From contig NZ_CP016773.1 in the NCBI RefSeq assembly GCF_002288065.1, positions 806,001 through 870,000 of the forward strand: 64,000 nt of DNA. Reading direction: 5' to 3'. This DNA comes from Candidatus Planktophila sulfonica (GTDB lineage: Bacteria > Actinomycetota > Actinomycetes > Nanopelagicales > Nanopelagicaceae). Positions 10,706 through 55,631 of this stretch are shown piece after piece (positions within the stretch are counted from its first letter, which is position 1; each line of letters begins with the position of its first letter). Under the pieces are notes generated by a model. That model saw only the letters and a program-made list of their open reading frames with translations, was not told the DNA's origin and searched no databases. Made by a program: the position numbers and the translations under genes.

Positions 10706-11524
10706 ATGCTCAGTACATTCATCATCGCCCTACGCGAAGGCCTAGAAGCCGCGCTCATCGTTGGAATCCTTGTCGCCTACCTTGTGAAGAGCGACCAAAG
10801 AAGCCATTTACGCGCACTTTGGACAGGTGTAGCTCTCGCTATTACTGCAAGCCTTGCCTTTGGAGCTTTCTTGTCTTACACCTCTGCTGAGCTCTCAGAG
10901 AAGGGCGAAGAGCTCTTCGCCGGAACTACCTCTTTCGTGGCGGTCGGCCTTGTCACCTGGATGGTCTTCTGGATGAAGCGCGCAGCCCGTGGCTTGCGTG
11001 ATGAGCTCCATGGAAAGGCAGAGGTCGCTGTGACCTCTGGTGCCCTCTCGATGGCGACCCTCGCCTTCTTCGCTGTTGCTCGCGAAGGCCTGGAAACATC
11101 ACTCTTTCTCTATACCAACTTTAAAACCGTTGGCGCTTTCTCTACAGCGACCCTTGGATTGATCCTTGGCTTAGCTCTCGCAGTCGGTCTTGGTTATGGA
11201 ATTTACAACCGCGCAGTCAAGATCAACCTTGGAAAGTTCTTCACTTACTCAGGTGTGGCTCTAATCGTTGTGGCAGCGGGCGTTCTTTCATACGGAATCC
11301 ACGAGTTCCAGGAGTTTGGAATCTTGCCTGGCCCAGATGCTTTTGCATGGGATGTCACTTCATGGATGGCTAAGGAGTCATTTATGGCAGCGCTTCTTGG
11401 CGGAACAATTGGTTTTGATACAACGACTTCATGGCTCCAGCTCTTTGTCTGGGTCGCCTACCTTGGTTTGACTATCAGCGCCTACTTGTCGCCAGCGAAG
11501 GTAAAAACACCTCTTAACGCATAG
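10706..11524 (+). CDS. efeU: FTR1-family high-affinity iron permease (EfeU-like)
   Basis: A 272-residue membrane protein with about seven helices. The two FTR1 iron-binding motifs REGLEA at residues 10-15 and REGLET at 126-131 are both present, each inside a hydrophobic helix. This fits EfeU/Ftr1, which moves ferric or ferrous iron across the cytoplasmic membrane. The usual partners EfeO (cupredoxin/M75) and EfeB (haem peroxidase) are not nearby, so it either works alone or with partners elsewhere. It sits between rnd and the beta-oxidation genes, where mycobacterial and streptomycete loci have no iron permease that I recall. Codon choice looks somewhat more C/G-rich than the neighbours. Confidence 0.9.
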   Translation: MLSTFIIALREGLEAALIVGILVAYLVKSDQRSHLRALWTGVALAITASLAFGAFLSYTSAELSEKGEELFAGTTSFVAVGLVTWMVFWMKRAARGLRDELHGKAEVAVTSGALSMATLAFFAVAREGLETSLFLYTNFKTVGAFSTATLGLILGLALAVGLGYGIYNRAVKINLGKFFTYSGVALIVVAAGVLSYGIHEFQEFGILPGPDAFAWDVTSWMAKESFMAALLGGTIGFDTTTSWLQLFVWVAYLGLTISAYLSPAKVKTPLNA

Positions 11525-16777: not shown

Positions 16778-19435
16778 TTAGCCGCGGAGCTGACGCAGTA
16801 CGTACTGCATGATTCCACCGTGGCGGTAGTAATCCGCTTCACCTGGTGTATCAATTCGTACCTTAGCTGTGAAGGTCTTATCCCCTGCAGCCACTGTGAC
16901 TTCCTTAGGGATTCCGCCGTCATTGAGCGCGGTTACGCCGGTAATCGAGAATGTCTCATCACCCTTAAGACCGAGTGATTGAGCATTTGCACCGTTGGTA
17001 AATTGCAATGGAAGTACGCCCATGCCGATCAAGTTAGAGCGGTGAATGCGTTCGAAGCTTTCTGCAATCACTGCGCGAACACCGAGAAGCGCTGTTCCCT
17101 TTGCTGCCCAGTCACGTGAAGATCCTGATCCATACTCTTTACCTGCAAGGATGATCAGACCAACACCTGCTGCTTGGTATGCAACTGATGCATCGTAAAT
17201 TGTTGTCTGCTCGCCATTGGCAAGGAAGTTCTTGGTAAAGCTTCCTTCAACGCCATCAAGAAGTAGATTCTTAAGGCGAATATTTGCAAATGTTCCGCGG
17301 ATCATTACTTCGTGGTTTCCACGACGCGATCCGTAAGAGTTAAAGTCTTTTCGATCTACGCCATTAGCCTCGAGATACTTACCTGCAGGTGAATCAGCCT
17401 TGATATTTCCTGCTGGAGAAATGTGATCAGTTGTTACTGAATCTCCGAGAATCGCAAGAATTCGAGCTCCGGTGATATCTGTAACTGGCTTTGGCTCTGC
17501 TGGCATACCTTCAAAGTAAGGGGGTTTGCGAACATAAGTGGACTTTGGATCCCACTCGAATGTCTTTCCAGTCGGAGTATCAAGTGACTTCCAACGATGA
17601 TCGCCATCGAAGACAGTTGCATAATCCTTCTTAAACATTTCAGATGAAATAGATGAATCGATTACTGTTTGAATCTCTTGTGCAGATGGCCAGATATCTT
17701 TAAGAAGTACTGGGTTGCCATCTTTATCGTTACCCAAAGAATCGTTTTCGAAATCGTGATCCATTGTTCCGGCAAGTGCGTATGCAACAACAAGCGGTGG
17801 TGAAGCAAGGTAATTCATCTTCACATCAGGGCTAATGCGGCCTTCGAAGTTGCGGTTTCCTGACAAGACAGCAGTGACAGCGAGATCATTCTCGTTGACA
17901 GCCTTACTGATTTCGATAGGAAGCGGTCCTGAGTTTCCGATACAGGTGACGCAGCCGTAACCGACCAAGTTAAAACCAAGGGCTTCCATGTACTTGGTGA
18001 GATCAGCGCGATCGTAGTAATCGGTGACAACCTTTGAGCCTGGTGCAAGAGTTGTCTTTACCCATGGCTTAGATGTCAGACCCTTTTCAACAGCCTTCTT
18101 TGCAAGTAGAGCTGCACCGATCATGACTGAAGGGTTTGATGTATTGGTACACGATGTAATTGAGGCGATAACTACATCGCCATTCTTGATTGTGGTCGCC
18201 TTCGCACCAACGTTTACTGAGTAAGCCTCTTTACCTGTCTTATCTGAGAAGTAGGTAGGAAGAATCTTCTCGAATGATGACTTTGAAGCGGTCAGTGAAA
18301 TGCGATCCTGCGGACGTTTTGGTCCAGCGATTGATGAGACAACTGTTGAAAGATCGAGTTCGATATTCTCTGAGAAACGTGGAGATACAGAAGGGTCATG
18401 CCACATTCCCTGAGCCTTTGCATACTGCTCAACTAGCGCAACCTGATCATCGCTACGACCTGTAAGGCGAAGGTAGCGAAGTGTCTCTTCATCGATTGGG
18501 AAGATCGCACATGTCGAACCGTATTCAGGTGACATATTTCCGATAGTCGTGCGGTTTGCCATAGGTACTGAGACAACACCTGGACCATAGAACTCTACGA
18601 ACTTGCCGACAACGCCATGCTTACGAAGCATTTCAGTAATTGTCAGAGCCATATCAGTTGCAGTTGTTCCAACTGGTAGCTCGCCAGAAAGCTTGAATCC
18701 AACAACGCGTGGAATGAGCATTGATACAGGCTGACCAAGAAGTGCTGCTTCTGCCTCGATTCCACCTACACCCCAACCAAGGACTCCGAGTCCGTTGACC
18801 ATGGTGGTGTGCGAATCTGTTCCAACAACTGTATCTGGGTATGCGCGAAGAACTCCATTGACAGTACGTGTCATAACAACGCGAGCAAGGTATTCAATAT
18901 TTACCTGGTGAACGATTCCGGTTCCTGGTGGAACAACTTTAAATTCATCAAAGGCGCCCTGGCCCCAACGCAAGAAGCGGTAACGCTCGCGGTTACGTTC
19001 GTATTCAATATCTGTGTTCTGCTCGAAAGAATCTTTTGTTCCGAAGACATCTGCAATAACTGAGTGGTCAATAACGAGTTCAGCGGGAGCAAGCGGATTT
19101 ACCTTAGATGGATCTCCCCCAAGATCAACGATTGCTTCGCGCATGGTTGCAAGATCGACGACACAAGGAACGCCAGTGAAGTCCTGCATAACAACGCGCG
19201 CTGGCGTAAATTGAATTTCTGTATCTGGCTCGACAGATGGATCCCACTGGGCAAGCGCCTTGATGTGATCCGCAGTGATGTTGGCGCCATCTTCGGTGCG
19301 CAAGAGATTTTCAAGAAGTACCTTGAGTGAGAACGGAAGGTTGGCTGCGCCTTCTACTGCTGAGATATCAAAGATTTCATAATCTTTGCCGGCAACTGTG
19401 AGGTTCTTCTTTGTGCCAAGTGAGTTCTTGCTCAT
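16778..19435 (-). CDS. acnA: aconitate hydratase
   Basis: An 885-residue [4Fe-4S] enzyme that interconverts citrate and isocitrate in the TCA cycle. The first cluster Cys lies in [18 protein letters not shown] (near 440) and the other two in [14 protein letters not shown] (near 505). The swivel domain follows ([39 protein letters not shown]). It is full length, of the AcnA/IRP1 type. A perfect 18-bp palindrome lies 23 bases upstream of the start codon, overlapping the stop of the preceding methyltransferase gene, and is a likely operator. Confidence 0.96.
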
Positions 19436-19458
19436 CGTGATTCTTCTTTCGCGGGAGA

Positions 19459-19476
19459 TATCTTGACGTCAAGATA
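19459..19476. promoter_or_regulatory. perfect 18-bp palindrome upstream of acnA, probable operator
   Basis: TATCTTGACGTCAAGATA is a perfect inverted repeat, centred 32 bases upstream of the acnA ATG. It also contains the last codons of the upstream RNA methyltransferase gene. No other copy was noticed in the window. Streptomyces aconitase is known to be controlled by the MarR-family regulator TamR through palindromes of this length; whether this is that site is inference. Confidence 0.6.
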
Positions 19477-20683
19477 CCTTAGTGGGTACGAATTTCGCAA
19501 CAGATTCGATGTGATGCGTCATGGGAAAGAGATCAAAAGCCCGCATGGATTCGAGTTGGTAGCCGGCATCGCGTAGATATCCGGTATCTCGGGCAAGCGC
19601 CGCAGGGTCACATGCGACATAGACGATTGCTCGCGGCTTTAACTGCGCGCAATGCGCGATGACATCTTTGCCCGCGCCTTCACGTGGTGGGTCGAGAACG
19701 ATGACATCTGCAGACGAGAAGCGGGTAATCAACCGTGCAACATCGCCTGTGTAGATATTGACGTTGTTCTTGCCCTCAAAGTTTCGGGCCGCGTCCGCTG
19801 TTGCGCTCTTGCTTCCCTCGACAATATCGACGGAACCCGATTCACCGATATGAGTTAAGAAGCTTGCGGCTAAGAGACCGACTCCACCATAAAGATCAAG
19901 AACATGATCTCCTTCGCGCAATTGCGCGTATTGCAGAACGGCCTCTGTTAGTACACGTGGAGCGTCTTTATGGCTCTGCCAAAATGATTTCTGGCTGACT
20001 TCAAAGGAATTCTCTCCAACCGTGTAATGAGCTACATCGGGTCCGTCGCTGATTCGAAGCGGAGATTCATCGCGAGAATTGGCAGTAGCGATTGTTCGCT
20101 CACCCGTGTTCGAGATCGAAATTTCAATACGTTGATCACCTTTAGCACCGCGTTGAGCGAGCTCTGAATAACGCATCTCAGGTACAAGAATTCTGCAATC
20201 ATCAACGGGGATAATTTTGTGAGAGCGAGCTTGGTAGAAACCGAGCGCCCCAGCTTTGGTAGTAACGGCTGAGCATCGTGTTCGCCATCCAAGAGGGCCT
20301 GCAACTTCTTCGACTTCTACTTCAATATCCATCTTTGCAATGCGTGAGAACTGTTCCGTAATGACATCGCTCTTCAAGCTGAGTTGGCGTGGAAGAGAAA
20401 TATGCTGGAAATCGCATCCCCCGCATCCATTTCTATGCGCAAAGCGGCATGGTGCGCTGACACGATCTTCTGAAGGTGCGGTGACTTCAATAACGTCGGC
20501 ACGATTAAATGAGGAGCCCGTGCTGGTTATCTCGATTGTGCACTCTTCGCCAGGAATACCGTGGCGGACGAAGATAACGGCGCCTTCGTAGCGAGCGATG
20601 AAGTGTCCCCCGTGGGCGACCTTCTCGATTGTTACCTGAATTTTCTGCCCTACTTCGAGCGTTGTTCTCTTGGTAGATGACAT
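19469..20683 (-). CDS. TRAM-domain class I RNA methyltransferase (RumA/TrmA-like)
   Basis: A 404-residue m5U-type RNA methyltransferase, taking the ATG at 20681-20683. A longer frame runs to 20755 but would cross the divergent trkA promoter. The TRAM domain is at the N-terminus (VGQKIQVTIEKVAHGGHFIARYEG), followed by a Cys cluster CRFAHRNGCGGC that fits the iron-sulfur site of RumA. The SAM site is LDLYGGVGLLAASF and the catalytic Cys lies in YVACDPAALARD. The family methylates U in 23S rRNA or tRNA; the exact target is unknown. The mycobacterial homologue lies beside the same trkA pair. Confidence 0.88.
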   Translation of the reverse strand: MSSTKRTTLEVGQKIQVTIEKVAHGGHFIARYEGAVIFVRHGIPGEECTIEITSTGSSFNRADVIEVTAPSEDRVSAPCRFAHRNGCGGCDFQHISLPRQLSLKSDVITEQFSRIAKMDIEVEVEEVAGPLGWRTRCSAVTTKAGALGFYQARSHKIIPVDDCRILVPEMRYSELAQRGAKGDQRIEISISNTGERTIATANSRDESPLRISDGPDVAHYTVGENSFEVSQKSFWQSHKDAPRVLTEAVLQYAQLREGDHVLDLYGGVGLLAASFLTHIGESGSVDIVEGSKSATADAARNFEGKNNVNIYTGDVARLITRFSSADVIVLDPPREGAGKDVIAHCAQLKPRAIVYVACDPAALARDTGYLRDAGYQLESMRAFDLFPMTHHIESVAKFVPTKVS

Positions 20684-20749
20684 GGAGGCAAGCCTAGTCG
20701 AGATCCGAGTATGAGAGATTTTTGGCGCGACCAGTAGTAGGTTAACCCT

Positions 20750-21409
20750 GTGCATGTTGTCATCATGGGTTGCGGTCGAGTTGGTTCATCTCTTGCTATC
20801 GAACTAGAGGCTGCCGGCCATTCCGTAGCAATTATCGATCAAGCAAAAGAAGCATTCCGCCGATTGGGTCCTGACTTTAAGGGTCGCACAATCGTGGGCG
20901 TTGGTTTCGATAGAGATACTCTCCTTGAGGCAGGTATCGAAGGTGCTCAAGCATTTGCCGCAGTAAGTAATGGCGATAACTCAAATATTTTGGCTGCACG
21001 TGTGGCGCGCGAAAGTTATGGCGTAACCAATGTTGTGGCCCGTATTTACGATCCAGGTCGCGCGGAAATTTATCAGCGCCTTGGCATCCCAACAGTTGCA
21101 ACAGTTATCTGGGCAACAGATCAGATTTTGCGTCGTATCGCACCAGAAGGTGCTCGTTCTGAATGGCGCGATGCAACCGGAACCGTTCAGCTTCTAGAAG
21201 TTCATCCTCATCTCGATTGGTATGGACGTCCAATCTCAGAGCTCGAATCTGCAACGCAGGCACGCGTTGCCTTCCTTACTCGTCTCGGTGAAGGCCTCAT
21301 CCCTGAACCACAAACTGTTCTTCAAGATGGCGATCTTGTTCACATGACTATCCGTGATGATGGCATGGCCGCTGCAGAAGAAGCACTAACGCAAGGACCA
21401 GGTGAATAG
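20750..21409 (+). CDS. trkA: TrkA-family potassium uptake regulator (first of a pair)
   Basis: A 219-residue RCK protein starting at GTG 20750. The N-terminal Rossmann (RCK_N) domain has GCGRVGSSLAIEL and AIIDQ, binding NAD(H) or ATP; the C-terminal TrkA_C domain covers about 140-215. Such proteins gate K+ channels from the cytosol. It corresponds to mycobacterial CeoB, paired with CeoC. No TrkH/KtrB channel subunit is in the window. The gap to the second trkA gene is three bases, so they are co-translated. Confidence 0.9.
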   Translation: MHVVIMGCGRVGSSLAIELEAAGHSVAIIDQAKEAFRRLGPDFKGRTIVGVGFDRDTLLEAGIEGAQAFAAVSNGDNSNILAARVARESYGVTNVVARIYDPGRAEIYQRLGIPTVATVIWATDQILRRIAPEGARSEWRDATGTVQLLEVHPHLDWYGRPISELESATQARVAFLTRLGEGLIPEPQTVLQDGDLVHMTIRDDGMAAAEEALTQGPGE

Positions 21410-41700: not shown

Positions 41701-42318
41701 ACCCAATGGGCGTAGCTGGCGACGGAGTTCGACGGTGAGATCGTTTACGCGAGCAAGATTTGCCTGCATCGAATCGAGCTTACGAATTGCCTTCTCTTTA
41801 CGCTTGCGGTGCTTCAGCACGCCTGCAGCTTCTTCGATAAATCCGCGACGTTCTTCAGGTGTTGCCATCAAGATTGCATCAAGTTGGCCCTGGCCAACGA
41901 TGACGTGCATCTCGCGACCGATACCTGAATCGCTCAAGAGTTCTTGGATATCAAGAAGACGTGATGCTTCTCCATTGATCTGATATTCGCTCTGTCCATT
42001 GCGGAAGAGAATGCGAGAGATAGTTACTTCGGTGTAGTCGATAGGGAGCGCGCCATCGGTGTTATCAATTGTTACCGCAACTTCTGCACGGCCTAGTGGT
42101 GCACGACCTGAAGTTCCGGCGAAGATAACGTCTTCCATCTTTCCGCCGCGAAGTGACTTTGCACCTTGTTCACCCATAACCCAGGTGAGTGCATCAACGA
42201 CGTTTGATTTTCCAGAACCGTTAGGACCGACCACGCAAGTGATTCCGGGTTCGAGACGAAGAGTGGTCGCCGAAGCAAAGGATTTAAATCCTTTGAGGGT
42301 GAGGCTCTTCAAATACAC
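38782..42318 (-). CDS. smc: chromosome segregation protein SMC
   Basis: A 1178-residue SMC ATPase starting at GTG 42316-42318 (MYLKSLTLKGFKSFA). The Walker A is GPNGSGKSNVVDALTWVMGEQG (near 32-53); two long coiled coils flank a hinge near 500-650; the C-terminal head has the signature LSGGEKSLTAVAMLVAIF and Walker B FYVLDEVEAALDD. It acts as the core of condensin in chromosome compaction. ScpA/ScpB are not in the window. The rnc gene is 90 bases upstream. Confidence 0.96.
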   Translation of the reverse strand: MYLKSLTLKGFKSFASATTLRLEPGITCVVGPNGSGKSNVVDALTWVMGEQGAKSLRGGKMEDVIFAGTSGRAPLGRAEVAVTIDNTDGALPIDYTEVTISRILFRNGQSEYQINGEASRLLDIQELLSDSGIGREMHVIVGQGQLDAILMATPEERRGFIEEAAGVLKHRKRKEKAIRKLDSMQANLARVNDLTVELRRQLRPLGKQAEVAKKAATIQADLRDAKLRLLADDYISLSKTLDAEVADENALRERRADVEGELDKVRRREEELDAQSAFESPLLIKAQENFYSLSGLREKFRGTQSLAQERSRFLAEEAEEARSAGRDPEALDQEAATLRQEEAQLRGAVVEAQNALAASTASLATSEAALKAEEDTIAAAMRAIADQREGTARQEGHIKSLAARLEAITEEISRLAAARAEAQSRVDSAKSDYAKFEMEIGNADAGEQGLDSQFEGAKNSLDVAKKAHAELVDAERAADRERNATESKLEAMRLTSDSRDGAAALIRDSRGVQILGSIASLIQIDSGWEAATAAALGSLADAVVVKDLSSAVSALTTLRSENLGQADVLVYEPGQRAGGETPSGQTSLLSHVRSSEISELLASLLATTVVAENARDAESILRQHTHVTVVTRDGDVITSHRARGGSASSTSLIEIKALVDDLAKKLEDLNHKCDRLKFEISTAATEVDAKQAAFDTALSKLNESDARIAAITEQLAVSGQNIKSATAEVERLTVAINEATAAKSRDENELSIASNQMQNHGEIAEPDHARAESLRNDVSNARTAEVEARLAVRTSEERVASIAARALALEESAKAEREASERAVSRRGARARGAVISQAIAEAAYEALINIERSIAKAQTERTRLENARADREGETLTVRARNRELTQELDQLTSSVHRDEIARAEQRMRVEALQTKAVEELGIDIPTLVAEYGPDKDVPTFIETEEGEIVATELIPYRRDQQEKRLAATERSLTLLGKINPLALEEYNALEERLKFLAEQLEDLKRTKKDLLDIIKEVDDRVQQIFMEAYEEVAEHFKDIFSRLFPGGDGRLFLTNPDDLLNTGVDVEARPPGKRVKRLSLLSGGEKSLTAVAMLVAIFKSRPSPFYVLDEVEAALDDVNLGRLLTILEELRESSQLIIITHQKRTMEIADALYGVTMRGDGVTEVISQRLRESETA

Positions 42319-54911: not shown

Positions 54912-55631
54912 GTGGATAAGAAGAATAGCGGAGTCGGCGTTCTAGACAAAGCCGTAGGTATCTTGGCAACGCTCGAATCAGGGCCTCATTCACTCGCAGA
55001 GCTCGTTGCAGCCACTGGTATCGCCCGCCCAACCGCTCACCGCCTAGCGGTAGCGCTCGAATTCCACCGTCTCGTTGCCCGTGATCTCAATGGTCGCTTC
55101 ATCTTAGGTCCACGTTCTGCCGAACTTGCTGCCGCGGCTGGTGAAGATCGCCTTATTGCAGCTGCTGCCCCAGCGTTAGCAGCGTTACGCGATGCCACTG
55201 GTGAATCTGCGCAGTTATATCGCCGCCAAGGAGATATCCGTATCTGTGTAGCTGTTGCTGAACGTCTTTCAGGTCTGCGCGACTCTGTTCCGGTTGGTGC
55301 ATCGCTCACGATGCAGGCAGGTTCTGCTGCACAAATTTTGATGGCATGGGAAGACTCAGAGAAGATTCATCGCGGCCTTAAGAATGCGCGTTACACCGCA
55401 GCTCACTTGGCTGCAGATCGCCGTCGTGGCTGGGCGCAATCAGTTGGCGAACGCGAAGCCGGCGTTGCTTCCGTTTCAGCGCCCGTGCGCGGCCCTAATG
55501 GAAAAGTTATCGCCGCAGTTTCAATTAGCGGACCTATCGAGCGTTTAGGACGTCAACCAGGACGTTTACATGCAGCTGCTGTTGTGGCAACTGCAGAGCG
55601 CCTCACAGAGCACCTAAAGCAAGGTAAGTAA
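54912..55631 (+). CDS. ltbR: IclR-family regulator (LtbR/NdgR-like)
   Basis: A 239-residue regulator starting at GTG 54912. The winged helix is at the N-terminus (KAVGILATLESGPHSLAELVAATGIARPTAHRLAVALE), and the IclR ligand domain follows (about 90-235). Its divergent place next to leuC matches corynebacterial LtbR and streptomycete NdgR, which control leuCD and amino-acid genes. An imperfect palindrome lies in the shared promoter. The effector cannot be told. Confidence 0.9.
   Translation: MDKKNSGVGVLDKAVGILATLESGPHSLAELVAATGIARPTAHRLAVALEFHRLVARDLNGRFILGPRSAELAAAAGEDRLIAAAAPALAALRDATGESAQLYRRQGDIRICVAVAERLSGLRDSVPVGASLTMQAGSAAQILMAWEDSEKIHRGLKNARYTAAHLAADRRRGWAQSVGEREAGVASVSAPVRGPNGKVIAAVSISGPIERLGRQPGRLHAAAVVATAERLTEHLKQGK

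Follow-up and report, generated by a model that had tools for sequence, protein, structure and literature searches.

What recognises the perfect palindrome that stands immediately upstream of the aconitase gene acnA, and does it regulate this gene alone? We analysed the whole 64,000-nucleotide stretch of DNA (hereafter the window), the rest of the genome, 36 other genomes of the genus and a sample of the class.

A perfect palindrome at the junction of rlmD and acnA

The sequence TATCTTGACGTCAAGATA, at 19459-19476 of the window, is a perfect 18-bp palindrome. Coordinates and letters were verified, and the statement of the sequence-only reading that it lies 23 bases before acnA is exact. The gene acnA (16778-19435, minus strand) encodes an aconitate hydratase of 885 aa, above the TIGR01341 cut-off, and is the predicted target; 19436-19458 therefore form a 23-base gap, on the minus strand, between the palindrome and the start codon, in which a likely purine-rich ribosome-binding site was recognised by eye. 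The upstream gene (19469-20755, minus strand) encodes an rlmD-like 23S rRNA uracil methyltransferase, above the TIGR00479 cut-off. As this gene ends at 19469, its TGA stop (19469-19471) falls within the palindrome, an overlap also seen in the earlier reading, and the last rlmD codons and the TGA lie within one palindrome half. A scan for a sigma-70-type promoter at the acnA site found none.

By itself, a perfect 18-bp palindrome carries little weight and is mildly unusual: three were observed in the window, against a mean of 0.2 and a maximum of 1 in 30 Markov shuffles. Further perfect palindromes lie at 10904-10921 (18 bp) and 42276-42295 (20 bp). The acnA palindrome is set apart from chance by being conserved and by occurring together with a single regulator. 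On the basis of its sequence and of its distribution in the genus, we annotate 19459-19476, with no strand assigned, as the predicted TamR operator of acnA.

A second site upstream of mdh

Allowing up to 3 mismatches, TATCTTGACGTCAAGATA matched once in the window, where 0.03 matches are expected, and twice in the 1,344,614-base genome; the reversed control gave 0. The sole other genomic copy lies 30 bases before mdh, the gene for malate dehydrogenase, whose product, like AcnA and RlmD, scores above the curated family cut-offs. It reads TATCTTGACGTCGAGAGA on the plus strand, directly past the stop of a short ORF downstream of folD (a name taken from the sequence), and overlaps no listed gene. 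The idea that the motif would define a regulon if it preceded other TCA or Fe-S genes thus holds for the second copy at mdh, but not for a broad TCA/Fe-S set: from sequence, the regulon seems to consist of two genes, acnA and mdh.

Looser searches brought up one more candidate. Among the exact genomic matches of the 14-base core, 3 of 5 are inside long ORFs, one of these upstream of polA. One-mismatch places number 44 in the genome, and of the 11 that were read, only the one at a pntA-like gene (named from sequence; NAD(P) transhydrogenase) is clearly intergenic. This operator-like site (C1:217706, L012:1501-1514) has 2 mismatches to the degenerate consensus. Since the site is not conserved across the genus (4 mismatches in the sister species G018, 7-8 in the other 17 genomes read), pntA was rejected as a conserved third target; its site may still have a species-specific role.

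The genome encodes a TamR ortholog

The MarR_2 profile matched seven proteins of the genome, 2 of them above the Pfam cut-off. One, P0001 (169 aa, G000:C1:137341-137847, minus strand), exceeds the cut-offs of both MarR_2 and MarR. In alignment it is 53-66% identical to the TamR proteins of other families of the class, several of which are tam-linked, and it shares 62% identity with the regulator linked to tam in Streptomyces mexicanus, whereas paralogous MarR proteins are far weaker matches. Within the DNA-binding region, the motif SGTMTNR hardly varies across the alignment. The AlphaFold model (mean pLDDT 84.6) adds an extra N-terminal helix to the MarR fold, a mark of the UrtR-like MarR branch, and its best structural matches are the PecS-operator and MftR-operator complexes, the best solved relatives being 39-44% identical. 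P0001 is most likely the TamR ortholog, a MarR-family protein of the PecS/UrtR-like branch. The sequence-only reading had suggested looking for a MarR or TetR gene carrying the same site: a TamR-like MarR gene is indeed encoded, but tamR itself has no site.

Among the matches listed, the closest named TamR records include SCGC AAA278-O22 (L178, 91%) and 'Candidatus Nanopelagicaceae' (L185, 73%). A search for TamR in phages found none. No report of TamR in Nanopelagicales was found in a literature search that subscription papers mostly escaped, and palindrome variants searched there as letters gave no match. Within the window, at about 54936-55082, a gene that by its sequence encodes an IclR-type regulator, and that gave a weak MarR_2 match, adjoins an aconitase-family leuC-like gene.

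The operator follows the regulator in the genus

The genus sample comprised 37 genomes, this one (G000) included, and a genome was scored TamR+ on a strong match, with E below 1e-50. Such a match was found in 20 of the 37; in G019 a fragment with 89% identity lies at the edge of a contig, and the remaining 16 have weak MarR paralogs or nothing. For 3 of these 16, TamR status was left undecided: G008 and G009 are without ispE, the neighbour of tamR, which is incomplete in G031.

The DNA upstream of acnA was read in 26 genomes (G003, L105, is without gene start and gives no row). The site was present in all 15 TamR+ genomes, at 0-2 mismatches from the strict word, and in none of the 8 TamR- genomes, which have at least 5; the palindrome is thus conserved in relatives, as the earlier reading required, in those that have TamR. 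Two undecided genomes, G009 and G031, have the site and nest among TamR+ genomes in the tree described below; G008, which is without it, groups with the TamR- ones. Within the genus, the TATCTTGACGTCAAGATA site before acnA is therefore confined to genomes that either have TamR or have a tamR slot left unassembled. Judged by coordinates, the exact 14-base core lies 21-25 bases before the acnA start in G003, G019 (the fragment), G021 and G030, all TamR+, and is nowhere in the genomes of G010 and G020, both TamR-.

Upstream of mdh, the site was found in 16/16 TamR+ genomes, a group that here includes G019, at 1-5 mismatches, and in 0/12 TamR- genomes, with 8-9. Of the undecided genomes, G031 has it, and in G009, whose tamR slot is unassembled, it is degraded (7 mismatches) whereas the acnA site is kept. 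As to the chance level, 3000 random 250-base stretches were drawn from the window: 27 match at 5 mismatches, and fewer than 5 were seen only in 10 stretches that contain the acnA site itself. With the coordinate-based cases included, Fisher tests gave 5e-8 for acnA (19/19 versus 0/10) and 2e-8 for mdh (17/17 versus 0/12), values that are too small because the genomes are related.

The overlap with rlmD provides an internal control. The left half, TATCTTGA, encodes the end of rlmD, and its 8 coding bases show 0 mismatches in 7 of the 8 TamR- genomes. The right 10 bases are noncoding; they have 0-2 mismatches in 15/15 TamR+ genomes and 5-8 in 8/8 TamR- genomes. Coding accounts for just half of the palindrome: in genomes without TamR, the rlmD-encoding half persists while the free half decays. 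The joint coding and regulatory constraint first proposed for the whole palindrome must therefore be divided: coding constraint bears on one half, and the other half, free of it, tracks TamR.

Losses of tamR

A tree was built by a quick method from AcnA, Mdh and IspE (40 rows). TamR and the acnA site must each change 2 times on it, and the two independent pairs agree in direction. On this tree, tamR was lost at least twice independently, and the acnA site is gone both times. A sign test on this co-loss gives p 0.5, and cannot reach significance with just two independent pairs.

When present, tamR occupies the interval from ispE to tRNA-Gln, in antisense orientation, and glmU (named from its sequence) comes after the tRNA gene. 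The slot is cleanly empty in 10 TamR- genomes, where ispE is directly joined to tRNA-Gln and the next gene (G027, G029, G020, G032, G024, G017, G011 and G010, plus G015 and G004 by fetched stretches); G015 is a single contig. Among other TamR- genomes, G016 ends at the slot, and the neighbour is a different one in G023 and G035. Most likely, judging from sequence, the site has been kept before acnA and mdh in these small-genome actinobacteria, and lost wherever tamR was lost.

The same association across the class

The class sample consisted of one genome from each of 23 other families. The acnA upstream region was read in 18 of them, the other five having no acnA start. All 11 genomes with TamR had the site, with 0-2 mismatches to TATCTYGAYRTCRAGATA, and none of the 7 without TamR did (6-8 mismatches; Fisher p 3e-5). 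In these families the site lies 23-139 bases upstream of acnA. G054 carries a further acnA copy, which lacks the site and was left out of the count. For mdh, the site was present in 5/6 genomes with TamR (2-3 mismatches), the exception being G050, and in 0/6 without; L289 (G047) was unplaced. Together with the mdh copy and the encoded TamR-like MarR gene, this conservation supports the TamR-type control of aconitase that the sequence-only reading had put forward, a view that was essentially right because regulator and sites co-occur in the genus and across families.

A tamR gene without tam and without its own operator

We then compared named tamR loci, taking the best 80 of 591 confirmed candidates. 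In 29 of these 80, a divergent tam stands beside tamR, and the strict core TCTYGAYRTCRAGA precedes tamR in 24 of the 29; it does so in 14 of the 51 loci without tam. In L022, L028 and L031, from other families of the class, tamR and tam diverge and the palindrome lies in between.

The situation differs in the genus studied here. Using a tam query whose protein is above the NCBIfam trans-aconitate 2-methyltransferase cut-off, no Tam above generic methyltransferase level was found in the 37 genomes, G000 included (best 3.5e-10). In this genome ispE and tRNA-Gln flank a solitary tamR, which no divergent tam accompanies. No operator was found upstream of tamR in any of 20 genus loci, the best match having at least 7 mismatches, whereas among outgroup loci of the class, 9 of 10 have an upstream operator at 1-4 mismatches; the tenth (G037) has 5. 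Among the loci listed, three Nanopelagicales records (L219, L239 and L241) have no tam within the flanks and have kept the tamR site, which suggests that tam was lost first.

Several other loci deserve mention. Two class genomes, G038 and G049, have a strong Tam match and no strong TamR match. Records with Microbacteriaceae-type names (L225, L228, L236, L242, L246, L248-L251) encode TamR with no flanking tam and no tamR site, possibly a parallel reduction in a second lineage. Finally, L187, L189, L193 and L202 are MAGs titled 'Bifidobacterium breve' whose TamRs are 63-77% identical to P0001, and three of them adjoin ispE; these titles look wrong.

Other explanations of the palindrome

The palindrome could be the operator of another regulator, either a TetR-type protein such as AcnR of Corynebacterium or the second MarR protein. 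Aconitase repressors outside the MarR family do exist, AcnR being one, and a second MarR gene of this genome is above the Pfam cut-off. However, that protein shares only 28% identity with TamR. The sites disappear along with tamR, and similarly weak MarR matches remain where sites are absent, as in G015. Sites also occur in the tamR-tam promoters of other Actinobacteria. We hold this explanation to be quite improbable.

Even less probable is an RNA element, that is, a transcript hairpin used as a terminator, an attenuator or a ribosome shield. The strand can form a stem of 10 pairs capped by a 4-base loop, but this folding is weakly better than that of shuffles (z -1.76, 15 of 200 being as good), and a search for a terminator-like site found none; on these grounds the hairpin or terminator reading was rejected. 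Moreover, the motif is also present in divergent tamR-tam intergenic DNA, it stands at the varying distances from acnA given above in other families, and its loss follows that of a DNA-binding protein. Symmetry arising from coding sequence and chance, conserved through the overlap with the end of rlmD, retains hardly any probability, for although TATCTTGA is kept without TamR in 7 of 8 genomes and the window holds three perfect 18-bp palindromes, the noncoding 10 bases follow TamR and the mdh copy overlaps no listed gene.

Discussion

We think it very probable, by analogy with Streptomyces and from the sequence comparisons, that the palindrome is a TamR operator, and that TamR holds down acnA and mdh until released by citrate or aconitate. 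A TamR dimer would sit on the palindrome just upstream of acnA, and on the second site upstream of mdh, and when bound would hold both genes down. At acnA it might block either the binding of polymerase or the progress of polymerase arriving from rlmD. Citrate or aconitate would build up, for instance, upon damage to the iron-sulfur cluster of aconitase or iron shortage; the ligand would then weaken the binding of TamR to DNA, and acnA and mdh would be released. For direct binding, repression and ligands, we infer the behaviour here from that of Streptomyces TamR.

It is also likely, with less assurance, that Nanopelagicaceae-like bacteria (Nanopelagicaceae being a freshwater family) have a stripped-down TamR circuit, with no tam, no autoregulation and two operators, and that at least two lineages deleted the regulator cleanly, their operators decaying. 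If so, TamR would be a plain citrate/aconitate gauge for aconitase and malate dehydrogenase, kept without the detoxifying enzyme, a regulator that outlives its namesake gene. The TCA genes of TamR- lineages would be unregulated at the TamR level, and form a natural knock-out series. The paired loss of regulator and operator, with a coding half-site as internal control, would be a clear case of streamlining removing a regulatory circuit. For hard-to-grow, small-genome actinobacteria, this amounts to a predicted regulator, operator and two targets in central carbon metabolism, and the class-wide operator consensus offers a means of annotating TamR targets.

How does this compare with known systems? 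Reportedly, the studies of Huang and colleagues describe the sites of TamR (SCO3133) as 18-bp palindromes, and mdh, idh and aceB1 among its targets in S. coelicolor. AcnR of Corynebacterium, a TetR-family aconitase repressor, is likewise actinobacterial and linked to aconitase, but the protein families differ. PecS, MftR and HucR (UrtR-like) regulators have the MarR fold and its additional N-terminal helix in common with the modelled TamR. The Vibrio PecS site given in PMC6391409, TATCTTTATATTAAGATA, is an 18-bp palindrome whose six outermost bases per half, TATCTT...AAGATA, match those of the acnA site. PecS is divergent from the pump gene pecM and responds to urate-like ligands, whereas TamR responds to citrate and related compounds, and pecM is absent beside the tamR studied here, which has ispE and tRNA-Gln as neighbours. 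With the TamR regulon of S. coelicolor, the likeness lies in a MarR-family TamR and an aconitase target: according to PMC5487221, aconitase is repressed there by TamR along with other genes of the citric-acid cycle, and citrate and trans-aconitate lift the repression. For Streptomyces TamR, PMC5487221 and PMC9739823 cite Huang and Grove 2013 and Huang et al. 2015. Streptomyces records among the best 80 of 591 loci have divergent tam and tamR, whereas here tam is absent, tamR is alone without its own operator, and sites are found at acnA and mdh only. By sequence, then, the palindrome is most likely an operator of the known TamR kind, in a new lineage and with a reduced architecture.
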